Below are positions 636 to 19,400 of a DNA stretch of 32,407 nucleotides, piece after piece. Under the pieces are notes generated by a model. The model ran no database searches. It had not been told where the DNA came from and saw only the letters and a program-made list of their open reading frames with translations. Made by a program: the position numbers and the translations under genes. Source of the DNA: Desulfobacteraceae bacterium 4572_35.2 (GTDB lineage: Bacteria; Desulfobacterota; Desulfuromonadia; Desulfuromonadales; Desulfuromonadaceae); contig NBLY01000060.1 in assembly GCA_002084665.1 (NCBI GenBank), positions 1 to 32,407 of the forward strand. The letters run 5' to 3'. Each line of letters begins with the position of its first letter. The first letter of the stretch is position 1.

Positions 636-749
636 CCTAGCGAAAGGAAAGAGTGAATTATGGAAAACATTGGAACAGTTATAATTTGGATTCCTAGCGA
701 AAGGAAAGAGTGAATTATGGAAAACATTGGAACAGTTATAATTTGGATT
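636..749 (+). repeat. 57-bp perfect tandem duplication spanning the eutH start
   Basis: The 57 bases 636-692 are repeated exactly at 693-749. Each copy contains the ribosome binding site (GAAAGGAAAGAG), the ATG and the first eleven codons of eutH. Translation from the first ATG (660) gives a 17-residue peptide that shares the eutH N-terminus and then stops at TGA 711-713, three bases before the second ATG at 717. It may be an assembly overlap or a real duplicated start. Confidence 0.9.
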
Positions 750-1922
750 ATCATGGCATGTGCAGTTGTTGGCGCATTCGCCTCGCTTAAAGATGAAGAA
801 AATGGTCTTGGTGGAGAGTTTATTACAGGTTTACATAGTATCGGCCCAATCTTTGTTCCAGTTGCTGGAATTATGGCGGCTATTCCTTACCTGTCAAAAT
901 TTATCAATGCTGTTTTTGGTCCTTTGTACAATGCTGTTGGCTCGGATGCAGCTATCGCTGCCACCACGTTTATCGCTGTTGACATGGGCGGCTACCAACT
1001 TGCCGATGCCCTGGCCCAGACTCGCGAGGCTTGGATCATGGCAATGATCACTGGCTACATGGCGGGTGCGACCATCGTATTCTCTATTCCAGTTGGTCTG
1101 GCAATGTTGGACAAGAAGGACCACAAGTACATGGCACTGGGTGTGATGGCTGGTATCCTGAGTATCCCCATCGGCGTGTTTGTTACCTGTATTGTTACGA
1201 TGCTGACCAATGTTCAGGTGCGAGACATGGTCTCTGCTAATGCCGATGCAAGCTACGTTCTTGCTCTTACTCTGGGTGGCATTTTGGCCAACCTGACTCC
1301 TTTGATTATCTTCTGCTTGGCGATCGCTGTTGGCCTGTGGTTGGTGCCAGGTGTCATGGTGCGTGGTTTTCTCGCTTTTGGTAATACCATGACTGCAAGT
1401 CTTAAATTGGTGTTGGTGTTCAGCATTGTTGAGTATTTCACTGGATTCTTTAGTTCAACACTTGGTGGCTGGGGCTTTGATCCGATTATTGCCGATACTG
1501 TAGACCAGTTCCGTGCGCTGGAAATTGCTGGCTATATCGGCATTATGCTGTGCGGTGCCTTCCCGATGGTTTACCTGATTCAAAAATATCTGGCTAAGCC
1601 GATGGACGCTATCGGTGGCAAGCTAGGCCTTGAGAGCAATGGCGCAGCTGGCATCTTAGCAGCCGCAGCCAACATTTTGGCCATGTTCCGCCTTATTGGT
1701 GATATGCGCGCTAAAGATAAAGTTCTATGTATCGCATTTTCAGTATGCGCTGCTTTCATGTTCGGTGATCACCTTGCGTTCACCGCCAACTTTCAACCGA
1801 CTCTGATCGCACCAGTTATGTTGGGTAAGTTCATCGGCGGTACGACAGGATTTTTCCTAGCCTATCTGTTGTCCGTTCCTAAGGCTGAAGCTCTCGAGCT
1901 GGAAGATAGAGATGTCGCATAG
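717..1922 (+). CDS. eutH: EutH, ethanolamine permease/facilitator
   Basis: A 401-residue polytopic inner-membrane protein matching the EutH family in length (E. coli about 408) and in its conserved segments, for example the FITGLHSIGPIFVPVAG stretch near the N-terminus, AVDMGGYQLAD near residues 88-98 and the MFGDHLAFTANFQP motif near the C-terminus. EutH is thought to import ethanolamine when the external concentration is low. Around ten hydrophobic segments are visible. The start at 717 follows GGAAAGAG, but a duplicated start lies 57 bp upstream. The stop overlaps the eutA start by 11 bp, so the two genes are translationally coupled. Identification is firm. Confidence 0.95.
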   Translation: MENIGTVIIWIIMACAVVGAFASLKDEENGLGGEFITGLHSIGPIFVPVAGIMAAIPYLSKFINAVFGPLYNAVGSDAAIAATTFIAVDMGGYQLADALAQTREAWIMAMITGYMAGATIVFSIPVGLAMLDKKDHKYMALGVMAGILSIPIGVFVTCIVTMLTNVQVRDMVSANADASYVLALTLGGILANLTPLIIFCLAIAVGLWLVPGVMVRGFLAFGNTMTASLKLVLVFSIVEYFTGFFSSTLGGWGFDPIIADTVDQFRALEIAGYIGIMLCGAFPMVYLIQKYLAKPMDAIGGKLGLESNGAAGILAAAANILAMFRLIGDMRAKDKVLCIAFSVCAAFMFGDHLAFTANFQPTLIAPVMLGKFIGGTTGFFLAYLLSVPKAEALELEDRDVA

Positions 1923-3369
1923 CGAAAAAGGTAGCCTGCCGATTGAGTCCGGAACGGGACAGAGTATGACGTGCGGCGTTAGCGCTACGCGGAATACCGA
2001 TGTTCGTCAGGTGAAACTTATCGGGTTTGATTTTGGCTCGACCACCAGCAGTGCCATTGTTGCCAAAGCCCATGTCGGTCGTAATTGTGTTACGGGTCGC
2101 ATGGAGCTTGGCCAACCGGAAATTCTATATCGCTCGACACCGGTTTTTACCCCGTTTGCTGATGGCGTGATCGATGAACAGCGAGTGGAGGAGTATCTGG
2201 AGCAGTGGCTGGAGGAAAGTGACACTAATCTGGAGGATATCTTTGCCGGTGGCACTATCATTACTGGTCTGGCGGCACTGCGCAGTAATGCGCAACCTCT
2301 AGCTAGGCTGGTAAGTGAACGGATCGGCGAGGCGGTTATCGCTACAGCTGATGATCCATCGCTGGAGTCGTGGTTGGCATTTATGGGCAGTTGCTCGGTA
2401 TTGTCCCGCTTTCACAGTGAAACACCGATCGTCAATCTTGATATCGGTGGAGGAACCACAAATCCGGCTCTGGGATTGAACGGTAATGTGCAAAGCACCG
2501 GTTGTTATTATGTCGGGGCGCGACATTTCCGTTTTAAACCCGACAGCTATCTGTTGCTTGGACTATCAGAGTTCGGTCGTCAGCTTCTGAAGCACTTGGG
2601 GGTTCCGTTGTCTGTTGGTGAAGTTATGAGCTCGCAGCTACGTGATCAGATCCTCGATTTTTATATCGAGTCACTGGAAGCCATGGTTAAAGGGGCAACG
2701 CAGTTTTTTGCGAACGGGATTGCCAAGGTTCATCAGCAGGTGCCGTTTGAATGTGACTGTAGCGGAGTACCGCCGGTTGTGACCTTTTCTGGTGGGGTTG
2801 GTGAGTTGATCTATCAACAGGTTGCCGGCGAGGGGTTGCCAACAACAACCTATTTTGGTGATCTGGGGCGAGCAACTGTCTACGGTTTAGCTCTGCACAG
2901 CACCGATGTTTCTGGCACCACCCTGTATACCCTGTATCTACCCGATAGTCAAGCACTGCCGTTGCGGGATCTGCCAATTGTGGCGCGTTTGGCGATGGAT
3001 GCTAGCTTTGATGACTGGGTGCATGCTCTGGAATTGTTGCGTAAGGGGAGCAGTGGCGGTTGTATTCAGATTCTTTCACCGCGATCATTGGATCCTAATG
3101 GACCCCCAGCGAGCTTGCCACAAATTAAAGCAGCCGGTCAGTGTTTGGCGGCGGTGTTGCAGGCTCACCCTCTGTCTGATGAGCACACCATGGTGTTGGT
3201 TGTTAGTGACAATGCTGGCAAAACCCTCGGTAATTATGCGTCAAACTGGGGCCAATTGCCGGTGAAACTGGTGGTGATTGATGAAATTCCTGATCGCCAT
3301 GCACATTTTGTGAATATCGGTCGTTGTTTGAATAATATTGTTCCGGTCTCTTTTTATGGAATGAATTAA
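1912..3369 (+). CDS. eutA: EutA, ethanolamine ammonia-lyase reactivating factor
   Basis: A 485-residue cytoplasmic protein of the EutA family, an actin/Hsp70-fold chaperone that exchanges damaged cobalamin out of ethanolamine ammonia-lyase in an ATP-dependent way. The first phosphate loop is IGFDFGSTTSSAIV (about residues 37-50), the second IVNLDIGGGTTNPAL (about 173-187), and VVTFSGGVGELIY follows near 290. The C-terminal half keeps the family pattern down to the final VNIGRCL and VPVSF. The N-terminus is about 30 residues longer than in E. coli EutA. An internal ATG at 1966 is an alternative start, but 1912 has a GGAAG site and overlaps eutH. eutBC follows 42 bp later. Confidence 0.93.
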   Translation: MSHSEKGSLPIESGTGQSMTCGVSATRNTDVRQVKLIGFDFGSTTSSAIVAKAHVGRNCVTGRMELGQPEILYRSTPVFTPFADGVIDEQRVEEYLEQWLEESDTNLEDIFAGGTIITGLAALRSNAQPLARLVSERIGEAVIATADDPSLESWLAFMGSCSVLSRFHSETPIVNLDIGGGTTNPALGLNGNVQSTGCYYVGARHFRFKPDSYLLLGLSEFGRQLLKHLGVPLSVGEVMSSQLRDQILDFYIESLEAMVKGATQFFANGIAKVHQQVPFECDCSGVPPVVTFSGGVGELIYQQVAGEGLPTTTYFGDLGRATVYGLALHSTDVSGTTLYTLYLPDSQALPLRDLPIVARLAMDASFDDWVHALELLRKGSSGGCIQILSPRSLDPNGPPASLPQIKAAGQCLAAVLQAHPLSDEHTMVLVVSDNAGKTLGNYASNWGQLPVKLVVIDEIPDRHAHFVNIGRCLNNIVPVSFYGMN

Positions 3370-3411: not shown

Positions 3412-3830
3412 ATGAGTAAGATTTTAAAAATTAAGTCGCTAGACGAAATTGTTGTTCCTGAACCGAAGGTGGATGAAACGTACAACAAAACGTTGTTAAA
3501 TCGTGAATTTTCGTTCGTAGGACTTAAGAAATTGTTGGGTGTGGCTGATTTTTCTAAGTCTGGTGACGGAAGATGAGATCAGTCGTGAAGCAGCACGCTC
3601 AATACTCTCCAACCTGACACTGCAACATCTGTACGATCGCCCACTGATTGATTAGCAGCGGAAGATGAGATCAGTCGTGAAGCAGCACGCTCAATACTCT
3701 CCAACCTGACACTGCAACATCTGTATGATCGCCCACTGATTGATGATCGTGGTGAGCTAGATTCCGTTATGCGAGTCGGTTACGATATCGATATGGCGGT
3801 GTTTGATTCTATTGCCGATACAACAATCGG
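3412..3830 (+). pseudogene. eutB: EutB N-terminal part, disrupted
   Basis: ATG 3412 after AAAGGAGAATTAAT is the natural start of the ammonia-lyase gene. Residues 25-52 align with the EutB N-terminus (NREFSFVGLKKLLGVADFSK, then SGD, against the E. coli VYQFKDVKEVLAKANELRSGD). The frame stops at TGA 3574-3576 inside a duplicated 86-bp block. It reopens in the same frame from 3655 (AAEDEISREAARSILSNLTL, then YDRPLIDD) and continues to SIADTTIG near 3830, where the frame changes and about 16 residues of the family alignment are missing before the main open frame. If repaired, this would be continuous with the gene at 3849. Confidence 0.85.
3567..3744 (+). repeat. 86-bp near-perfect direct repeat inside eutB
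   Basis: Bases 3567-3652 and 3659-3744 are identical except for one C/T difference (3634 versus 3726), which is synonymous (Tyr TAC/TAT). A 6-base spacer separates them, giving a 92-bp period. Only the second copy is in frame with eutB. The first ends the reading frame. Confidence 0.9.
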
Positions 3831-3848
3831 GAGCGTATCAGTCCAGCA

Positions 3849-5636
3849 TTGCTCCCCGTGGTGGTGGCCAGTCTCGCTAAGATCTGTGATGTACACGAAC
3901 TGATCTATCTTTCTGCTAAGGTTAAGCCTAACGCTAAGGCGCGTACTCGCGTCGGTTTGCCAGGTACACTGTCTTCGCGGTGCCAGCCGAATCATCCCAC
4001 CGATGATCTGCGTGGCTTGACCTTGCTGACCTATATGGGCCTCGCCGAAGGAACTGGTGATTGCTTACTAGGGATGAATCCGGCGGAAGATACAGTGGAA
4101 AATGTCAGTGTTGTTCTGGAAACAATGGACAAGATCCGTCGCGAAACTGGGGTGCCAACTCAGCTCTGCTGCCTATCTCATATTAAAACTCAGCTGGCCG
4201 CTCTGGAAAAAGGGGCACCAGTTGAAATCCTATTCCAAAGTATCGCTGGAACCGACAGTACCCTGATTGATGAGTTCGATGTCACCGTTGATTATCTGGA
4301 TAAAGCCTATTACATCATGGCTGAAAAGGGTCCATTGCGTGATCAAGCTGAGCAGTGGATGTACTTTGAGACAGGTCAGGGCAGTGAAGTCAGCTACAAC
4401 AAACATAACGGCATCGATATGACGGTTACTGAGGCGCTGTGTTATGGCTTAGCGCGTCGTTATGATCCGTTTATGGTTAACAATGTTACCGGTTTTATCG
4501 GTCCCGAAACCCATCTGGATAACTTTGAGATGATGATCTCAAATCTTCAGGATCATTTTATGGGTAAATTGATGGGCCTACCTATGGGGATGGCACCATG
4601 TTACACCCTTCACTCAAATTGCACCTTAGAGGGGCAGCAGATGGCGACCCAGATGTTGACCGCTGCTGGGGCCAATTTCTTCATGGATGTTTATTATGGC
4701 ATGGATCGTATGCTGTCCTATTTTGACACCAGCGGCCACGATAATCAGACCTTGCGAGAAATTCACAACCTGAAACCGGCTCCTGAATATTTGGCTTGGG
4801 CTGTTGAAAAAGGGATCTACCAGCTCGATGAGCAGGGCAATGTTGAGCGTGGTGCCCATTGGGGTAATCCGCGGATCTTCTGTGATTCAGATGTTGAGTT
4901 TCAGAAATTGCTTGAGTCTACTCCGGCTGTTTATGGTCTTGAAAATGCTGGGCCACGTGTTGCCAACGATGTGCAACGTACATTACGTGCCAATCAGGCG
5001 ATTGCTCGTGAGGCTATCCACGCTGATCTGCGTATGGAAGAGTTTGAGAAATTCAATGTTCGACTACTCAATACCAAAGCAACAAGTAAGGATGCTCATC
5101 TCAACGATCCTGAACTAGGAGCACATATTGACGAACAGGATCGAGCGGCATTGAAGGTGGAAAATTGTGACGTGCAGATTCTAATCTCCGACGGTCTCAG
5201 TGCTGAGGCCATTCATCACAACATGGACGAATTGCTGCCAGTGTTGGAGGATGGACTCAAGAGCCGAGGTTATACCGTTGCTCAGCACCTTGTCGCTCCT
5301 TATGGACGGGTTAAGCTGGCCGAGGAGGTTTCCTATGCAGTTCAGGCCAAGGTGATCATTAACTTGATCGGTGAGCGCCCAGGCGGTGATGCCTTAGCTT
5401 CACGCAGCATGTCTTCCTATATGACCTATCGTCTCGAAGATGATGATAAGCAGGCCGCTGCCGAGTTCAGCGGCAATAACGATATTGCCTTTGAGATGAC
5501 AGTTATCTCGAATATTTACGCCGGTGGCATCCCCTCTCTTGAGGCTGGCAGTCTGATTGTTGAAAGAGCTAGCGAAATTCTTACAAACCGCGCAGCTGGC
5601 AACCGCCTTACTAATTTGCTCAAAGACAAGGCTTAA
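3849..5636 (+). CDS. eutBC: Ethanolamine ammonia-lyase, EutB-EutC fusion (lacking EutB N-terminus)
   Basis: This 595-residue open frame carries EutB from its middle onward and EutC in a single polypeptide. The enzyme converts ethanolamine to acetaldehyde and ammonia with adenosylcobalamin. EutB signatures include SSRCQPN (substrate-binding Arg and Gln in the GTFSARLQPN context), WMYFETGQGSEVSYN, VTGFIGPE and GMDRMLSYFDTSGHD with the catalytic-site acidic residues. EutB ends near NPRIFCDSD (residue about 350). EutC follows with AGPRVANDVQRTLR, then QILISDGLSAEAI, YGRVKL, LIGERPGGD and ISNIYAGG. The microcompartment-targeting N-terminal tail of EutC is absent. The listed start (TTG 3849) is only where the open frame begins; the true start is 3412. 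A terminator follows at 5659. Confidence 0.9.
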   Translation: MLPVVVASLAKICDVHELIYLSAKVKPNAKARTRVGLPGTLSSRCQPNHPTDDLRGLTLLTYMGLAEGTGDCLLGMNPAEDTVENVSVVLETMDKIRRETGVPTQLCCLSHIKTQLAALEKGAPVEILFQSIAGTDSTLIDEFDVTVDYLDKAYYIMAEKGPLRDQAEQWMYFETGQGSEVSYNKHNGIDMTVTEALCYGLARRYDPFMVNNVTGFIGPETHLDNFEMMISNLQDHFMGKLMGLPMGMAPCYTLHSNCTLEGQQMATQMLTAAGANFFMDVYYGMDRMLSYFDTSGHDNQTLREIHNLKPAPEYLAWAVEKGIYQLDEQGNVERGAHWGNPRIFCDSDVEFQKLLESTPAVYGLENAGPRVANDVQRTLRANQAIAREAIHADLRMEEFEKFNVRLLNTKATSKDAHLNDPELGAHIDEQDRAALKVENCDVQILISDGLSAEAIHHNMDELLPVLEDGLKSRGYTVAQHLVAPYGRVKLAEEVSYAVQAKVIINLIGERPGGDALASRSMSSYMTYRLEDDDKQAAAEFSGNNDIAFEMTVISNIYAGGIPSLEAGSLIVERASEILTNRAAGNRLTNLLKDKA

Positions 5637-5658
5637 CCTGGTGTGAGTTTTCATAGCG

Positions 5659-5680
5659 AGGAGGCCCGTAAGGGCCTCCT
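5659..5680 (+). terminator. Hairpin terminator after eutBC
   Basis: A perfect 9-bp stem (AGGAGGCCC / GGGCCTCCT) with a GTAA tetraloop lies 22 bp after the eutBC stop, followed by TATCTATTT. It is GC-rich and tetraloop-closed, with a weak U tract. Confidence 0.75.
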
Positions 5681-5771
5681 TATCTATTTGCGGTTATTGA
5701 GTAATTTTTTGGTAACTGGATGGTTATGCTAATGGAAATTAAAACTTTTTGCGCTATGGCCAGCACTAACG

Positions 5772-5785
5772 GGCTGTGGCTTCGC
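5772..5785 (+). promoter_or_regulatory. Weak -24/-12 promoter candidate for the permease cluster
   Basis: GG at 5772-5773 and GC at 5784-5785 are ten bases apart in GGGCTGTGGCTTCGCA, 45 bp before the first small gene. Only the GGC and GCA parts fit the consensus, so this is weak. It would explain co-regulation with eutH. Confidence 0.2.
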
Positions 5786-5830
5786 ACTAATTTGACTCTG
5801 TTTTAGACCTGAATCAACGAAGAGGACATT

Positions 5831-6094
5831 ATGAGAAATAAAATAAACTCACTCTACACCAAAGACAATATTATTGTGTTCGCATCGATGTCCCTTCTCT
5901 GGTGCGTCATACTTTTTGTCCTCAAGCAGGTGATTTCGATCTCGCCGAGTGCTGGTTTCAGTAGCGCCGTCACCGGTGCTGGAGTCGCTGTTCTTGCCGC
6001 CCTTACAGCAACCTCTTTTGCCTTGATCATGCACCTTAAAAAAAACAAGATCTCATTATATACTGAAGAGATCGAGAATATTGGCAAACTATAA
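5831..6094 (+). CDS. Small two-helix membrane protein (87 aa)
   Basis: An 87-residue protein not recognised as a known family. Two hydrophobic helices are clear: about residues 13-35 (VFASMSLLWCVILFVL) and 44-67 (TGAGVAVLAALTATSFALIM). They are joined by a short polar loop and followed by a basic tail (HLKKNK) and an acidic C-terminus. ATG 5831 follows AGAGGA at good spacing. It heads a compact run of four small or large membrane proteins ending with the APC permease, with gaps of 12 to 26 bp, so a role as an accessory subunit or regulator of the permease is plausible but unproven. Confidence 0.75.
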   Translation: MRNKINSLYTKDNIIVFASMSLLWCVILFVLKQVISISPSAGFSSAVTGAGVAVLAALTATSFALIMHLKKNKISLYTEEIENIGKL

Positions 6095-6120
6095 GCGCCC
6101 AAGATATAAGGGAAAAAACT

Positions 6121-6357
6121 ATGAAAACCTTCAAGACTGTATTCGATATCCTGTTTATCATGCTCCTGTGCTTCGCCACGCTGCTAGGCACTATGCTGCT
6201 CCAGGGAGGGCTCTTAGTGGGCGGGGAGGGGATAGACTACACCTTCGGGCTGGGTTCGTTTACCGTTACCTTCGGTGCTATGGCTGTCTATTTTGTGTTC
6301 ATTCTCAAGACTAGCAAAAAGGAGCTGAAAACCATGATCGACAGGATCTACAAATAA
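6121..6357 (+). CDS. Small two-helix membrane protein (78 aa)
   Basis: A 78-residue protein with two predicted membrane helices, about 8-32 (LFIMLLCFATLLGTMLLQGG) and 44-62 (GSFTVTFGAMAVYFVFIL). The loop between them contains GGEGIDYTFG, and the C-terminus is lysine-rich (KTSKKELKTMIDRIYK). ATG 6121 follows AAGGGAAAA. No family was recognised. It sits 26 bp after the 87-residue gene and 17 bp before the next, in a cluster that ends in the ethanolamine permease. Confidence 0.75.
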   Translation: MKTFKTVFDILFIMLLCFATLLGTMLLQGGLLVGGEGIDYTFGLGSFTVTFGAMAVYFVFILKTSKKELKTMIDRIYK

Positions 6358-6374
6358 CACTAAAGGACAATATT

Positions 6375-6500
6375 ATGAGTTTCTGGAAAATTATGAATTT
6401 TTCGGCCTGGGCTTTAAGTACAATCATCTTTTTGTGGCTGGCTATTGATTTTTATAAAGCTGAAAAAGAGTTGTCAGACAAGAAAAACAGCATAGAATAA
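6375..6500 (+). CDS. Very small single-helix membrane protein (41 aa)
   Basis: A 41-residue open frame: ATG 6375 preceded by AAAGGACAA at normal spacing, stop TAA 6498-6500. One hydrophobic helix (FSAWALSTIIFLWLAIDF, about residues 9-26) is followed by a charged tail (KAEKELSDKKNSIE). It fills the gap between the 78-residue gene and the permease, leaving only 17 and 12 bp. The good ribosome binding site, tight spacing and membrane-tail composition support a real gene. Function is unknown; it resembles in layout the small subunits that accompany some permeases. Confidence 0.6.
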   Translation: MSFWKIMNFSAWALSTIIFLWLAIDFYKAEKELSDKKNSIE

Positions 6501-6512
6501 GGATGTGTTGCC

Positions 6513-7880
6513 ATGGATAATGCAAATAAAAAAGAACACAAGCTGTCAAAAGTCTTGGGGGTCATCCATATATGGGCTCTCGGCGTTGGAATTGTCCTCG
6601 TCGGTGAATTTATGGGCTGGAATTTTGCTGTAGCTAAGGGTGGTACTCTGGGGGCGATTATCGCTTGTTGGGTGATGGGGGTTCTTTTCATCTCGCTGGT
6701 GATGGTTAATACTGAGATCGGTTCAGTCATTCCTGAGGCTGGCGGCCAGTATGCTATGGCCAAATACCTTCTTGGCCCCTTGGCCGCCTTCAATATCGGC
6801 CTGATGTTGGTGTTTGAGTATGTCATGCTGGAAGCGGCGGACGCGCTAGTGGTCGGCCAGATTCTGGAATCTTTGCATCCAGATGTTCAGGCACTGCCCT
6901 ATATCATTCTGAGCTTGCTGTTTCTAACCTTGCTCAATTATCGCGGTGCTCTAGCGGCGTTATCATTAAATTTCGTGATCACCGCCATTGCGGTGTGTAC
7001 TATCTTCATTCTGCTGATCGTGACCAAATTTTACACCCCCGCTGACAGCCTACTTAACCTTAAAGAGATGTCAAATGGATTGCCTTATGGCTGGATCGGT
7101 ATTCTTGGGGCCTTTCAATTTGGTATCTGGTTTTATCTGGGGATCGAAGGGACAGCTTTGGCCGCCGAAGAGTGCCGTTCTACCGGTCGCTCTCTGCCGA
7201 TAGGAGCGATTGTTGGCCTGATCACTCTGCTGACTGGTGCTACTATCACTTGGTATGTCTGTTCGGGACTTGTCAACGCTGATGATCTCGGTAAGTCGGT
7301 CTATCCCCTTTATGACGCTGCTGTGGCAACGAAAATGCCATTTGTCATCGCTGCTCTGTTTATTGGTACCATCCTCGCTTGTTTAGCCAGCGCCAATGGC
7401 TGTATTCATGATGCAGGTCGAGCCTGGTTCTCTATGTCTCGTGACACATTGATTCCGGAGCAGTTTGGTGTCCTTCATCCTAGATACAACACCCCCCACC
7501 GAGCGATTTTGTTTCTATTGCCGATTTCGTTGGCTTTCGGTTTTACCGGACTGTTAGATCAGGTCGTGACGTTCTCCATCTTTTCTGCCCTGCTGGTTTA
7601 TGCATTCACTGCCATCATGATGTTCAAGTTCAGAAGCATGTACCCGCTAGGGACAATTGAGCGTGGTTATATCTGTCCTGCCCATCCGATTCCAGCCATT
7701 ATTCTCGCCATCTTGACTCTAGCGACATTCGCTGGTATGTATTTCGGTTATTGGATCAATATTCTCGGCGGCTTGACCTTTTACTTTTTGGCCTCGCTGT
7801 GGTTTGTTAAATATCGTTGTAAATCGGTTGATTTGGAAAACTTCATCACCCCGAGGTGGCCACGACCCAAAGGATTTTAG
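6513..7880 (+). CDS. eat: APC-family ethanolamine permease
   Basis: A 455-residue, roughly 12-helix transporter of the amino acid-polyamine-organocation superfamily, closest in features to the ethanolamine permease subgroup. The helix 1 region WALGVGIVLVGEFMGWNFAV carries the unwound Gly motif. GSVIPEAGGQYAMAKY matches the PxAGGxYxy motif, EGTALAAEECRSTGRSLPIG the helix 6 to loop consensus, and FSMSRDTLIPEQFGVLHPRY the late loop signature. ATG 6513 follows AAGGATG. It is the last large gene of the small-membrane-protein cluster and overlaps nothing downstream; the next start is 3 bp away. Its substrate is inferred from family resemblance and from the eut genes next door. Confidence 0.85.
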   Translation: MDNANKKEHKLSKVLGVIHIWALGVGIVLVGEFMGWNFAVAKGGTLGAIIACWVMGVLFISLVMVNTEIGSVIPEAGGQYAMAKYLLGPLAAFNIGLMLVFEYVMLEAADALVVGQILESLHPDVQALPYIILSLLFLTLLNYRGALAALSLNFVITAIAVCTIFILLIVTKFYTPADSLLNLKEMSNGLPYGWIGILGAFQFGIWFYLGIEGTALAAEECRSTGRSLPIGAIVGLITLLTGATITWYVCSGLVNADDLGKSVYPLYDAAVATKMPFVIAALFIGTILACLASANGCIHDAGRAWFSMSRDTLIPEQFGVLHPRYNTPHRAILFLLPISLAFGFTGLLDQVVTFSIFSALLVYAFTAIMMFKFRSMYPLGTIERGYICPAHPIPAIILAILTLATFAGMYFGYWINILGGLTFYFLASLWFVKYRCKSVDLENFITPRWPRPKGF

Positions 7881-7882
7881 TG

Positions 7883-8155
7883 ATGTCGATATTTTCCAGA
7901 TTGAAAGAATCTAGCCCCATATTTCTGGCGATCATGCTACCCGGCTCTGGACATCTAGTGTTGGGTCGCCCAGCACGCGGATTTATTCTGTTGCTATGGA
8001 TGGTGGTGATGGGTTTTATTACCTATAACCTCTCGGATGAAAACACCTCATTCATTGGTCGATATTCAGGAGGATTCGCTATTTTGATCCTTTCAGTGCT
8101 GGACATCGATACGATCATTCGTAAGCGCAAACAGCAAGCTAATACGGCCTGTTAA
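7883..8155 (+). CDS. Small membrane protein with GSGHLxxGRxxRG motif (90 aa)
   Basis: ATG 7883 follows AAAGGA with 9-bp spacing and is preferred over the GTG at 7856, which would extend it by 9 residues into the permease gene. The 90-residue product has an early hydrophobic segment ending in LPGSGHLVLGRPARGF, a strong helix (ILLLWMVVMGFITYNL) and a third hydrophobic stretch (GGFAILILSVLDIDTII) before a basic tail. The PGxGH-x4-GRxxRG pattern recurs in small uncharacterised bacterial membrane proteins. It starts 3 bp after the permease stop, so the two are likely co-translated. Confidence 0.7.
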   Translation: MSIFSRLKESSPIFLAIMLPGSGHLVLGRPARGFILLLWMVVMGFITYNLSDENTSFIGRYSGGFAILILSVLDIDTIIRKRKQQANTAC

Positions 8156-8209
8156 CCCCGCAGCGGCAATGCATTACACTGCCGAGCGATTAATCGACAA
8201 TTATAAACT

Positions 8210-8255
8210 AATAACTAACGCCAGATGAGCTGATTTGCCTCTGGCGTTAGTTATT
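8210..8255. terminator. 16-bp perfect hairpin, probable terminator
   Basis: AATAACTAACGCCAGA (8210-8225) and its exact reverse complement (8240-8255) flank a 14-base loop. It ends the cluster 55 bp after the 90-residue gene. There is no U run, so it could also be a processing or attenuation hairpin ahead of the adenosyltransferase gene. Confidence 0.65.
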
Positions 8256-8316
8256 GTACCAGCCTTTTCCTTTTATCTATTTTCAACCCCGTTTTACAAC
8301 AAACAGGAGAATTACC

Positions 8317-8865
8317 ATGGAGATATCGACAGGAACCGGTGACGGCGGTCAAACCAGCTTAACTGGTGGACAACGTGTCAGCAAAAATTCATTGCGCGTT
8401 TGTGCCTACGGCACCATTGATGAGCTCAGCAGCTTGATTGGTGTCATTGTGGCTGAGACACCAGCGGACACCATTGCGGATTCATTACGACAAATCCAAA
8501 GTGATCTTTTCAACCTCGGAACCGATATCTCTACGCCCAATGTTGATCCGGCGCTGGTAGCATCTGCCCGAATAAAAACTGTTCACGTTGAACGCTTGGA
8601 ACAATGGGCAGGATCTGCGACAAAAAAACTTCCAGTGTTACGCGAATTTATCCTCCCTGGCGGTTGTCGCACTGCCGCGTGGTTGCATCTGGCGCGCACG
8701 GTCGCTCGGCGGGCAGAACGTGAAGTGGTTGCTGTCTGTGCGACAGAGGGCGCTGCCATCAATCAACTCGCGATCATCTATCTCAATCGGTTGTCTGATC
8801 TTCTTTTTCTTTGGGCTCGAATTGCTAACGATTTTGGCCAAAAAGACGTTACGTGGTCAGTATGA
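8317..8865 (+). CDS. Cob(I)alamin adenosyltransferase, PduO/MMAB type
   Basis: A 182-residue cytoplasmic enzyme that transfers the adenosyl group of ATP to cob(I)alamin, making the cofactor of ethanolamine ammonia-lyase. The family motifs appear in order: TGTGDGGQTSLTGGQRVSK (ATP-binding N-terminus), YGTIDELSSLIG, the LFNLGTDIS segment, FILPGG, then LHLARTVARRAEREV, and finally YLNRLSDLLFLWAR. ATG 8317 after CAGGAGA is chosen; an upstream in-frame extension to 8254 would lie inside the preceding hairpin. It is a PduO-type enzyme, not the EutT type common in enteric eut operons. A bidirectional terminator follows at 8912. Confidence 0.92.
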   Translation: MEISTGTGDGGQTSLTGGQRVSKNSLRVCAYGTIDELSSLIGVIVAETPADTIADSLRQIQSDLFNLGTDISTPNVDPALVASARIKTVHVERLEQWAGSATKKLPVLREFILPGGCRTAAWLHLARTVARRAEREVVAVCATEGAAINQLAIIYLNRLSDLLFLWARIANDFGQKDVTWSV

Positions 8866-10521: not shown

Positions 10522-12519
10522 CTATTTAACGTCAATCTGATGTTCTTTAAATTTGCGATAGATCGTGTTGCGACTAATGCCTAACAGCATTGCGGCTCGC
10601 GAAACATTGCCGTCCGCTTCATCGAGGGCGAGCTCAATCATCTCGCGCTCTGTTTCCTTGAGCGGACGCACCTTACTCTGCCGTTTCACATCTGCGCCGC
10701 CCACCAGTTCAGTGTGCAATTCCATCAACTCAGCTGTCAGCAGTCCATCAGGGCCAGCCAGATTAATGGCTCTCTCTAAGACATTTTCCAACTCTCGGAT
10801 ATTACCCAGCCAGGGATAGATACAACACGCCCGCAAAAATGATTCGGCGACCGTAATGTCGTCACGGCCTAGTTTCTCAGCCAACCGCCCACTCAGGGCT
10901 TTAATCAACAAAGGCAGGTCCTGAAGGCGATCACGCAGCGCGGGGATGGTAATACATAGAACATTGAGGCGAAAATAGAGATCACTACGAAAGCGACCGG
11001 CCTCAATCTCTTTGGCTAAATTTTTATTCGTCGCAGCAATCACGCGGATATCGATAGGGATTTCGGTACTGGAGCCGACCCGTTTCACTTTACGCTCCTG
11101 CAACACCCGCAATAACTTTACCTGAACATGTAACGGCATATCGCCGATCTCATCCAGAAACAGGGTGCCACCGTCAGCCTCTTCAAAGTGGCCCGGTTTA
11201 CCGCCTTTTTTGGCACCGGTAAACGATCCCTCTTCATAGCCAAATAACTCGCTTTCGATCAGGTTTTCAGGAGTCGCAGCGCAATTGATCGCGATAAACG
11301 GTTGTTCACTGCGCTTGCCGCAGCTATGAATACTCTGGGCAAACATCTCTTTACCGGTACCACTCTCTCCCTGAATCAAAACCGTAGAGGGGCTTTGTGC
11401 GGCAATCTCGACACGTCGCTTGGCCTCATTAATCGTATCACTCTCACCGATGATGGTATCCAGTGTGTAACGTGTATTGGCCGTATGGGCGATGTTAGAA
11501 CGAGTTGTCTTGATTTTTTGCTTGATTTTTGGCTTTTCCTTTAGCTCAATTGCTGGGGCGCGTATGACGGCAATCGCACCGATGCTCTTGCCCTCATCGT
11601 CATATTGCAAGCAGGCAGAACTGAAGATACTGAACCCTTTTGCCTTCAGAAACACCTCTTGTTCTTCATAGCTGACACCAGTTTTTAGTAGGTCAAGTAT
11701 CGGTGCATCAGGGCCGACAAGGTTGCTGATATGCCACCCCTTCACGCTATCTGCCTCGACAGCAAAAATTTGGGCCGCAGCTTCATTGATTTTAGTAATC
11801 ATCCCCTGAGTGTCGACCGAAACTAGCCCCTCCCACATCGAGTTAATGATGGTTGTCGAGTATTTATACGCGACCTGAAGTTTATTGCGCGTATGGATGA
11901 GACGAAGTTGATTTTCGATCGCTTTAGCACCGGCCGCTACCATGGCTAGAGTGTGCAAACTGTCGAGTTGGCTGTCACCACTGACATTGAGAACGCCGAT
12001 CACTGGACCGTCGGGTTCAAAAATTGGTGCGGCATTACACATCAAACTTTGATTTGTTTCACAGTAATGTTCAAAGGCCTGAAGTTTGATTGGTTTTTGT
12101 TCCACAAGGCAGGTACCAATGGCGTTGGTACCGCGCATCGCTTCACTCCAATCTTCGCCGAGTCGGATAGACCCCAATGACATATCTGCTTGAGATTCCT
12201 GCCCTCCCACCTGCGAGACAATTATCCCGCGGTCGTCGGCTAAAACCACCTGAAAGCCGGTTTCACCGACAAAACTGTGTAGGTTTTCCATCACTGGCTG
12301 GGCCACGTTAATTAGGTATTGGAGATGCTCGAAACGTAAATGCTGATCAGCTAATTGGTTGGTACATGTTTGGTGAGGAGTATGGGGGTCCACCTCCAGT
12401 TGGCGACAACGTTGCCAGGAGTTAGCTACATATTGACGCACCTTTTGGGTGTCTAACCCCTGATCTGTTACAAATCGCTCCCAAGCCTTGCGCATCTCAT
12501 GAATTTGTTTATCGGTCAT
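10522..12519 (-). CDS. Sigma-54-dependent activator, AcoR/DhaR-like (GAF-PAS-AAA+-Fis)
   Basis: A 665-residue bacterial enhancer-binding protein. A GAF-like sensor domain (about 60-210, ending VIGVLNVSGD) precedes a PAS domain (about 225-330, STTIINSMWEGLVSVDTQG). The AAA+ domain follows, with Walker A GESGTGKE near 383-390, the sigma-54 contact loop as GSFTGA near 430 (GAFTGA in most homologues) and Walker B GGTLFLDEIGD near 452. A Fis-type HTH (NVSRAAMLLGISRNTIYRKF, about 636-655) ends it. It lies divergently beyond the eut genes that carry the -24/-12 promoter candidate, and 103 bp upstream of the Cache sensor, so it is the likely eut activator. Its start region is tandemly duplicated. Confidence 0.9.
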   Translation of the reverse strand: MTDKQIHEMRKAWERFVTDQGLDTQKVRQYVANSWQRCRQLEVDPHTPHQTCTNQLADQHLRFEHLQYLINVAQPVMENLHSFVGETGFQVVLADDRGIIVSQVGGQESQADMSLGSIRLGEDWSEAMRGTNAIGTCLVEQKPIKLQAFEHYCETNQSLMCNAAPIFEPDGPVIGVLNVSGDSQLDSLHTLAMVAAGAKAIENQLRLIHTRNKLQVAYKYSTTIINSMWEGLVSVDTQGMITKINEAAAQIFAVEADSVKGWHISNLVGPDAPILDLLKTGVSYEEQEVFLKAKGFSIFSSACLQYDDEGKSIGAIAVIRAPAIELKEKPKIKQKIKTTRSNIAHTANTRYTLDTIIGESDTINEAKRRVEIAAQSPSTVLIQGESGTGKEMFAQSIHSCGKRSEQPFIAINCAATPENLIESELFGYEEGSFTGAKKGGKPGHFEEADGGTLFLDEIGDMPLHVQVKLLRVLQERKVKRVGSSTEIPIDIRVIAATNKNLAKEIEAGRFRSDLYFRLNVLCITIPALRDRLQDLPLLIKALSGRLAEKLGRDDITVAESFLRACCIYPWLGNIRELENVLERAINLAGPDGLLTAELMELHTELVGGADVKRQSKVRPLKETEREMIELALDEADGNVSRAAMLLGISRNTIYRKFKEHQIDVK

Positions 12520-12561
12520 CTGTTCTCCCCTGAATTTGTTTATCGGTCATCTGTTCTCCCC
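12500..12561 (-). repeat. 31-bp perfect tandem duplication at the activator start
   Basis: Bases 12500-12530 and 12531-12561 are identical and contain the ribosome binding site GGGGAGAACAG, the ATG and the first codons of the activator. The upstream copy's ATG would give a 13-residue peptide (MTDKQIQGRTDDR) ending at a TAA that overlaps the real start region. This mirrors the duplication at the eutH start. Confidence 0.9.
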
Positions 12562-15999: not shown

Positions 16000-16097
16000 C
16001 ACACAGAGCCACCAAGAAGACACCAAGCCACCAAGAGAATCAAGATCATAAAGGATTATTTTAAGATCTTTCTTTGTGGCTTAGTACCTTTGTGTGG
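16000..16097. repeat. Imperfect inverted repeat of the CACAGAGCCACCAAG type
   Basis: The left arm begins CACACAGAGCCACCAAG and contains CACCAAGCCACCAAGAGAA. The right arm, TTCTTTGTGGCTTAGTAC and then CTTTGTGTGG, is its imperfect complement. Similar palindromes rich in CCACCAAGACACAAAG-like words are dispersed between genes in many bacterial genomes; this looks like one such non-coding element. Confidence 0.5.
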
Positions 16098-16158
16098 AAA
16101 ATGATTTTGAAGTTACTCAGAAGCTGTGTGGAAAATGATTTTGAAGTTACTCAGAAGC
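16091..16158. repeat. 34-bp perfect tandem duplication, intergenic
   Basis: Bases 16091-16124 are repeated exactly at 16125-16158. The first copy begins within the right arm of the inverted repeat. It is another member of the window-wide set of short tandem duplications. Confidence 0.9.
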
Positions 16159-18024: not shown

Positions 18025-18130
18025 TCATCGGTGGCGGTTGAGTTGATCTGCTCCTGTTGCTCCTGTTGCTCCTGTTGTCATCGGTGGCGGTTGAGTTGAT
18101 CTGCTCCTGTTGCTCCTGTTGCTCCTGTTG
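18025..18130 (-). repeat. 53-bp perfect tandem duplication in batB
   Basis: Bases 18025-18077 recur exactly at 18078-18130. Because 53 is not a multiple of three, the copy shifts the reading frame and separates the QQE tract from the true C-terminus of BatB. Confidence 0.9.
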
Positions 18131-19400
18131 ATCCTGTTGCTCCTGTTGCTCCTGTTGCTCCTGTTGATCCTGTTGATCCTGTTGCTCCTGTTGCTCCTGT
18201 TGATCCTGTTGATCCTGTTGATCCTGTTGATCCTGTTGATCCTGTTGATCTTGTTGATCTTGTTGATCTTGTTGATCTTGTTGATCTTGTTGATCTTGCG
18301 TTGAGCCATAGTTGATCCCATTCAAGCGCTTGAGCAGGCTGAGGCACTAGCAACACCAAGCATAGTATCAATAACCAGCCACGGCGAAAAGCCAATGCGG
18401 CGATAAATGCCAGCGGCCATAATAGCCACGGCCCCTCTTCACGCCACTGTTCGCCAAGGCGTTGATTTGCTTCATCCTGTAGTGGGTCGGGATGGTCTAA
18501 ATCTTTTAGCACCGCATTGAGGTCGCTATCGTCAATTGCTAGCTGGTGGTAATGGCCGCCGCCCGCTTGAGCGAGTTCGAGCAGGCGGTTACTCTCAAGG
18601 CGCGGTAAAACCATCTGGCCGCTGCGATCTTTTATGAAGCCCCCCTGTGGTTGCGGGATCGGTGCGCCATCAGTAGTACCAATGCCGAGTACTGACAATT
18701 TATAGCCGTTATTTTGTAGCGCACTGGCAGCCTTTAAAGCACGTTGTGGTGTGTCCTCATCAGTGATGAGTAGCAATGTGCCGTGTGGTTGGCTCGCTTG
18801 TTTAAGCAGTTGTTCACCGAGGGCAATCGCTTGCGTTAGATCACTTCCTTGGGCTGGCATCATGGTTGGATCGAGGCTAGCCAGTAGAGCAATAATGGTT
18901 TTGCTGTCATCGGTAAGGGGGACAACGGTAAACGGTTCAGCGGCAAATACGATCAGTGCCGTTTGCCCCTCTTTTCGCTGGCGTAGCAGGTCGGTGACCT
19001 TTAAGCGCGCTTGTACTAAACGGTTCGGTTTAAGATCGGTGGCTAACATCGATTGTGATAGGTCGAGCAAAATAACCAGCGCCGATTGTTGTTTAAATAA
19101 TGGTTGTGGTTGGCGTTGCCACGTGGGGCCAGCGAGGGCGACTATGGCAAGAATGCCGCCTGTTAGTATTAAACCACGCAGCCATGATTGTGAATGGTCT
19201 GGCTCAGTTGCGTTATCGTTCTGATTGCTGATGAGGATATGTGGCAACAGTTGTGGATCGCACAGGGTTTGCCAGTTTGATGCCACACTCACCCGTTTTT
19301 TCCACCACCATACGGCGAGAACCAACAGTGGTAATAGCCACAGCCAATGGGGGCGTAAGAGATGAAAATTGGCCCATATTGTTAATAATAACTCTTTCAT
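18078..19400 (-). pseudogene. batB: BatB-type VWA protein, TPR part missing
   Basis: This open frame of 440 codons encodes an inner-membrane von Willebrand factor A protein up to about residue 365, then an out-of-frame repeat tail. Visible are an N-terminal helix ([14 protein letters not shown]), a second helix before the VWA domain ([18 protein letters not shown]), the metal-ion-dependent adhesion site [13 protein letters not shown] near residues 110-122, and two later helices ([26 protein letters not shown]). In homologues ALEWDQLWL is followed by TPR repeats and then a Gln-rich tract. Here the TPR domain is absent and the minisatellite starts directly, two bases out of frame. The start overlaps batA by 4 bp. 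Confidence 0.82.
18103..18298 (-). repeat. 9-bp minisatellite, about 22 units, coding for QQD/QQE
   Basis: Units of GATCTTGTT, GATCCTGTT or GCTCCTGTT (plus-strand view) follow one another without interruption. The frame joined to the BatB C-terminus reads them as Gln-Gln-Asp or Gln-Gln-Glu. The variants are ordered: GATCTTGTT at the upstream (batB 5') end, then GATCCTGTT, then mixtures with GCTCCTGTT. Length change by whole units would keep the frame. Confidence 0.92.

Follow-up and report, generated by a model that had tools for sequence, protein, structure and literature searches.

Introduction

To our knowledge, permeases of the APC superfamily are usually regarded as carriers made of a single chain; the familiar exceptions are the animal SLC7/SLC3 pairs. 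In these heteromeric amino acid transporters, an APC-type light chain of the SLC7 family works with a separate membrane partner of the SLC3 family. Some solute:sodium symporters (SSS) have small subunits of the DUF4212 and DUF485 types, and single small proteins regulate some transporters. In the crystal structure of the bacterial CAT homologue GkApcT, MgtS, a protein of one helix, lies against TM5 (PMC5803215). An APC carrier can therefore hold a small helix.

Here we describe a locus in a 32,407-nucleotide stretch of DNA (the window), part of a 1.9-Mb assembly whose nearest named relatives are Desulfuromonas/Desulfuromonadales MAGs. Its five genes, encoding an APC permease and four small membrane proteins (P87, P78, P41 and P90), suggest a so far undescribed transporter of several parts for small amines, or one that brings its own assembly factors. 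The combination of an APC-type chain with separate membrane partners resembles the SLC7/SLC3 pairs. However, the SLC3 heavy chain has a single TM helix and a large glycosidase-like ectodomain, whereas the partners found here are only 87, 78, 41 and 90 aa long and lack a large extracellular domain. As in the symporters, small membrane-partner genes stand beside a secondary transporter, but this transporter is an APC permease and not an SSS protein. Moreover, the known small-subunit families DUF4212 and DUF485 gave no match at the thresholds used, neither in Pfam for the four window proteins (E<=1) nor among members of the small families A2, A3 and A5 (E<=0.01; of P41, the window protein alone was scanned). 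The GkApcT-MgtS complex shares with our locus the pairing of an APC permease with a one-helix small protein, and GkApcT (5oqt) is among the two best-scoring PDB relatives of our permease; LAT1, b0,+AT and AdiC are also PDB relatives. In contrast to the cassette partners, which are several and genetically linked to the permease, MgtS was contributed by the E. coli cells used for expression and is no conserved operon partner.

Gene organization of the locus

The cassette lies among ethanolamine utilization genes, with the following features:

717..1922, + strand: eutH (NCBIfam EutH, 651 bits, over cut-off)
1912..3369, + strand: eutA-like gene (Pfam EutA, E=1.6e-54; NCBIfam EutA models below cut-off)
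3412..5636, + strand: eutB-eutC fusion; in the assembly its frame is broken at about 3.8 kb
5658..5681, + strand: terminator-like hairpin that separates eutBC from the cassette
5831..6094, + strand: P87, 87 aa, two predicted TM helices and a C-terminal H-L-K-K-N..L-Y-x-E-D motif (ORF, profile, dN/dS)
6121..6357, + strand: P78, 78 aa, two predicted TM helices, motif FD.LFIM.LCF.TLL (ORF, profile, dN/dS)
6375..6500, + strand: P41, 41 aa, one predicted TM helix, motif MSFW..MN..AWGL.......DFI.VE (ORF, profile, dN/dS)
6513..7880, + strand: APC-superfamily permease, 455 aa, of a distinct clade (Pfam AA_permease, E=3.4e-28; clade of 55)
7883..8155, + strand: P90, small membrane protein, 90 aa from ATG, motif PGSGH..LGRP.RG (remote DUF6677 similarity)
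about 8209..8256, + strand: 16-bp perfect hairpin between P90 and the adenosyltransferase gene (folding, relatives)
8254..8865, + strand: PduO-type cobalamin adenosyltransferase (TIGR00636, 183.7 bits)

The gene order is thus eutH, eutA, the eutB-eutC fusion, P87, P78, P41, permease, P90, hairpin and adenosyltransferase. A preliminary description of this DNA had reported tightly spaced ORFs of 87, 78 and 41 residues before an APC permease and one of 90 residues after it. All of them lie where it had placed them, and the gaps from P87 through to P90 measure 26, 17, 12 and 2 bp. For P90, the ATG start gives 90 aa, and an upstream GTG chosen by the mechanical ORF call gives 99 aa.

The small open reading frames as genes

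All four proteins are hydrophobic, with one or two predicted membrane spans each. Comparison with two close relatives (loci L021 and L022) gave dN/dS values of 0.02-0.04 for P78, 0.07-0.10 for P41 and 0.20-0.26 for P87, next to 0.02-0.03 for the permease; P90 gave 0.13 in the L021 comparison only, as its dS against L022 was saturated. P78 is the most conserved small partner, and residues W12 and D25 of P41 are invariant. Homologues of all four proteins are detectable in other phyla. By their substitution patterns, the small ORFs are real genes under purifying selection, and chance ORFs are ruled out by dN/dS together with the conservation across phyla.

For P87, P78 and P41, neither Pfam nor NCBIfam gave a match that reached the cut-off. 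P90 is a sub-threshold relative of DUF6677: the window protein scores 21.9 bits (gathering cut-off 24.3), and E<=0.01 is reached by 17 of 26 homologues, the best at 1.4e-06. A search for PDB sequence relatives returned none for P87, P41 and P90 at E<=1 and insignificant ones only for P78, and in two annotated plasmid records every listed partner is labelled "hypothetical". No description of the cassette was found in the open-access (PMC) literature, which is weak evidence of absence, and a Formimonas proteomics paper has no mention of an amino acid permease. The description of the small proteins as undescribed therefore holds for Pfam, NCBIfam, PDB and the open literature searched, with the DUF6677 relationship of P90 as its one qualification.

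Conservation of the cassette

When one genome per species was scanned with a protein pattern, 47 permease loci with 49-97% identity were obtained. Using the window small proteins as tblastn queries, we located same-strand copies of P87, P78 and P41 upstream of the permease and, in most loci, of P90 downstream of it. These loci belong to Desulfobacterota, Bacillota, Synergistota, a planctomycete, Acetobacteraceae, Rhizobiales/Methylobacterium (Alphaproteobacteria) and Actinobacteria. The order P87-P78-P41-permease-P90 is constant across Desulfobacterota, Bacillota, Synergistota, Planctomycetes, Alphaproteobacteria and Actinobacteria. Profiles detected P87 in 44, P78 in 45, P41 in 45 and P90 in 32 of the 47 loci, although these profiles were built partly from the same loci, so that the tblastn searches are the independent evidence. 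Where P87, P78 or P41 was missing, the locus was cut by a contig end. Median intergenic gaps are 19-28 bp across loci, and 4-bp overlaps are frequent; the close spacing and the order of the small genes hold in 44-45 of the usable loci. P90 adjoins the permease in about two thirds of loci and is absent next to it in about a dozen; it is therefore not strictly required.

Conservation in permease-bearing relatives had been set beforehand as a test, and P87, P78 and P41 were present wherever upstream DNA was available, except for P41 at one divergent locus (L091). Judged by these comparisons, the permease and the small genes are an ancient gene set in many bacterial phyla, with the upstream three nearly always and the fourth in most cases.

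Specificity for one permease clade

The second test set beforehand was whether the small genes occur without the permease, and no such case was found. In a first draw of 398 genomes, taken from the phylum to which a Desulfosporosinus genome belongs, nine genomes matched the P78 profile and the high-scoring class of permease profile matches fell in the same nine (Fisher p about 2e-18), while the next-best APC permeases of this draw (208-255 bits) were without any small partner. The divergent locus L091 comes from this draw and carries P87 and P78 without a detectable P41. A second draw of 398 genomes, from the phylum of a Mesorhizobium genome, contained the permease (679-710 bits) in 14; P87, P78 and P41 accompanied it at 14/14 loci and P90 at 13, the remaining locus being truncated. 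A search of 40 cassette genomes detected P90 in 32, nearly always as a single copy located at the cassette; the exceptions are a weak second match in G041 and, in G067, a partial match only, beside a contig end. The distance matrix of each small family tracks that of the permease (r = 0.67-0.85), a congruence that common inheritance alone could give.

The preliminary description had called the transporter an ethanolamine permease and had proposed a search for co-occurrence with eat permeases, and here our results depart from it. None of the small genes was found at 29 TIGR00908-type permease loci, 25 of which score over the curated cut-off, or beside nine other near APC paralogs. Membership in the APC superfamily is clear for the window permease (PF00324, 99 bits, gathering 24.6; PF13520, 90.8 bits, gathering 27). 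It resembles the ethanolamine permease Eat (TIGR00908) in its APC fold and in occurring in ethanolamine contexts, and TIGR00908 is the nearest curated NCBIfam family. However, it scores 210.7 bits against an equivalog cut-off of 381.75, and the other cassette permeases likewise stay below (174.3 bits for L064, 217 for L033; overall about 167-217). In our tree, 55 cassette permeases form a single clade with a long stem and a support of 0.93, which includes no TIGR00908-type or other non-cassette member. The sub-cut-off score and the separate clade rule out TIGR00908 as the identity of the permease, and besides eut genes, cassette permeases also adjoin methylamine, MttB/pyl and sarcosine-reductase genes. 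The co-occurrence in the same genomes, the empty TIGR00908-type control, the single P90 copies and the one permease clade together indicate a permease-specific gene set and not generic small membrane proteins. One cassette permease (L058:5989-7824) bears a C-terminal universal stress protein domain.

Neighbouring genes and likely substrates

Ethanolamine ammonia-lyase or eutABC genes lie beside the cassette in the window and at L021, L022 and L025, and an EutD/PduL-type enzyme is encoded near it at L037. At other loci we found pylB/pylC (L027 and Desulfosporosinus relatives), MttB (L031), a corrinoid protein (L048) or sarcosine/glycine reductase components (GrdE/GrdF-like at L038; also L067). 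L064 and Sinorhizobium meliloti pSymB, where the permease adjoins methylamine genes, carry genes for a type III glutamate-ammonia ligase and mgs-type glutamate-synthase-like proteins of the N-methylglutamate route. In Paracoccus aminophilus, MgsABC and gmaS have been ascribed to the oxidation of methylamine (PMC4543880), and mgsABC/gmaS transcripts are up on methylamine in Methyloversatilis (PMC5023235). Several cassette loci have no recognisable amine genes nearby. A choline/ethanolamine-kinase-family gene was observed inside a Desulfosporosinus pyrrolysine gene cluster (L036:8949-9974).

Taken together, the neighbours point to short amines in general, and we regard an amine-type substrate as quite probable. 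The cassette would transport short amines or ammonium-bearing compounds, namely ethanolamine in the window operon and methylamines or sarcosine-related compounds elsewhere, and these would be imported or exported for the adjoining catabolic enzymes. Since an over-cut-off EutH is also encoded in the window operon, the cassette would be a second transporter there, and eutH is a candidate for a separate, ordinary ethanolamine transporter.

Natural fusions and a sixth gene

In six assemblies (L034, L046, L077, L078, L079 and L080), P87 and P78 form one ORF. These natural fusions suggest that P87 lies beside P78 and that the two proteins are in contact. The structure model of the fused protein was weak (pLDDT 64, pTM 0.48), too weak for a fold search.

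In Pseudomonadota, Actinobacteria and some Bacillota, the permease is followed by a sixth gene of about 225 aa before P90; the window and many Bacillota loci lack it. Its product is predicted to have one TM helix and a cytosolic domain (pLDDT 86.5, pTM 0.82). The model is similar to TtfA (6t84; Foldseek E 5.8e-4; Z 11.3, with a 4.2 A rmsd and 10% identity across 158 residues) as well as to chain 4/7 of multipass-translocon entries (7tm3, Z 10.6; 6w6l, Z 9.5; 9i78, Z 8.9), chains which we take to be CCDC47; nothing else stood out in the fold search. An example of this unnamed one-helix protein with its TtfA/CCDC47-like predicted fold, which occupies the same position in many bacteria, is L064:7399-8088. 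Many cassettes may thus encode a protein with the fold of the TtfA/CCDC47-type one-helix factors, but the window cassette has no such gene. The model favours an assembly or transport-factor role for the sixth protein. The three small partners proposed earlier were right in that several dedicated small proteins accompany the permease; their number is four, or five with the sixth gene in many loci.

Discussion

The permease together with P87, P78, P41 and P90 almost certainly constitutes an obligate functional module. Our preferred reading, to which we assign a probability of about 0.65, is a heteromeric amine transporter with the four small proteins as putative physical subunits of the permease. 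In such a transporter, the twelve-helix permease would work with P87, P78, P41 and, in most lineages, P90, and the small subunits would add roughly 7-8 predicted helices. They would assemble with the permease in the membrane, with P87 next to P78 and with the P41 helix and the P87, P78 and P90 hairpins surrounding it, and might be needed for its stability, gating or coupling. The earlier idea of an APC permease with dedicated small partners is borne out at the level of genetic linkage in both tests set beforehand; that the partners are physical subunits is what we infer.

The small proteins could instead be dedicated insertion, assembly or stability factors for the permease and not stoichiometric subunits. 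The predicted TtfA-like or translocon-chain-like fold encoded by the sixth gene in many loci keeps this explanation alive for the other small proteins, P90 is sometimes missing, and the co-occurrence fits equally well. However, the sixth gene is the one that many Bacillota and the window lack, while P87, P78 and P41 are nearly always there, and the very low, permease-like dN/dS of P78 and the strong co-inheritance are no less compatible with structural subunits. We therefore consider assembly factors rather unlikely. Regulators of the permease, either inhibitors or sensors that damp uptake, would be in keeping with the size and the one- or two-helix topology of the proteins, which are like those of known small transporter regulators, but at least three conserved proteins occurring together across phyla with near-complete co-occurrence are more than regulators usually show, which makes this role very unlikely. 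Finally, the catabolic genes around the cassette vary between loci, and from such a context a second, separate membrane function that merely shares the amine operon with the permease could be imagined; as the permease, P87, P78 and P41 stay together while the remaining neighbourhood changes, we regard this as highly improbable.

Beyond the preferred reading of a heteromeric amine transporter, we tentatively propose, at somewhat less than even odds, a new class of heteromeric secondary transporters for ethanolamine and methylated amines across bacteria, in which an APC permease would be functional only with three or four small subunits and, in some lineages, with the TtfA/CCDC47-like sixth protein. 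If true, the cassette would lend itself as a model of how small membrane proteins assemble with and tune a LeuT-fold carrier, and a function could be given to several small protein families that lack a name, three of which have no Pfam or NCBIfam family. For the N-methylglutamate, pyrrolysine/MttB and ethanolamine pathways, it also supplies a candidate transporter.

Hairpins and other sequence features of the window

The cluster had been said to end at a 16-bp perfect hairpin. The hairpin at about 8209-8256 is present and folds strongly (-27.8 kcal/mol, z = -7.2); in L021 and L022 the stem bases differ, yet the stem is preserved. Its role as the end of the cassette needs qualification. It lies about 50 bp past P90 and, outside the window, only the near relatives examined showed it. 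An Rfam scan of the whole window, this hairpin included, gave no match. Sigma-54 patterns near the cassette were limited to two-mismatch matches within coding sequence, with none in the 5637-5830 gap.

The eutB part of the window contains a 92-bp near-perfect tandem duplication (3567-3744), and its first ~119 residues are in a different frame from the rest; compared with this frame-broken copy, the eutB-eutC fusion is intact in L021 and L022 (731-732 aa). Exact two-copy tandem duplications, possibly assembly artefacts, occur at 636-749 (57 bp), 12500-12561 (31 bp) and 16091-16158 (34 bp); those at 636-749 and 12500-12561 lie where genes start. Furthermore, an array of 9/18-bp repeat units at the end of a BatB-like VWA gene (18025-18295) gives rise to repetitive open frames in at least two phases.
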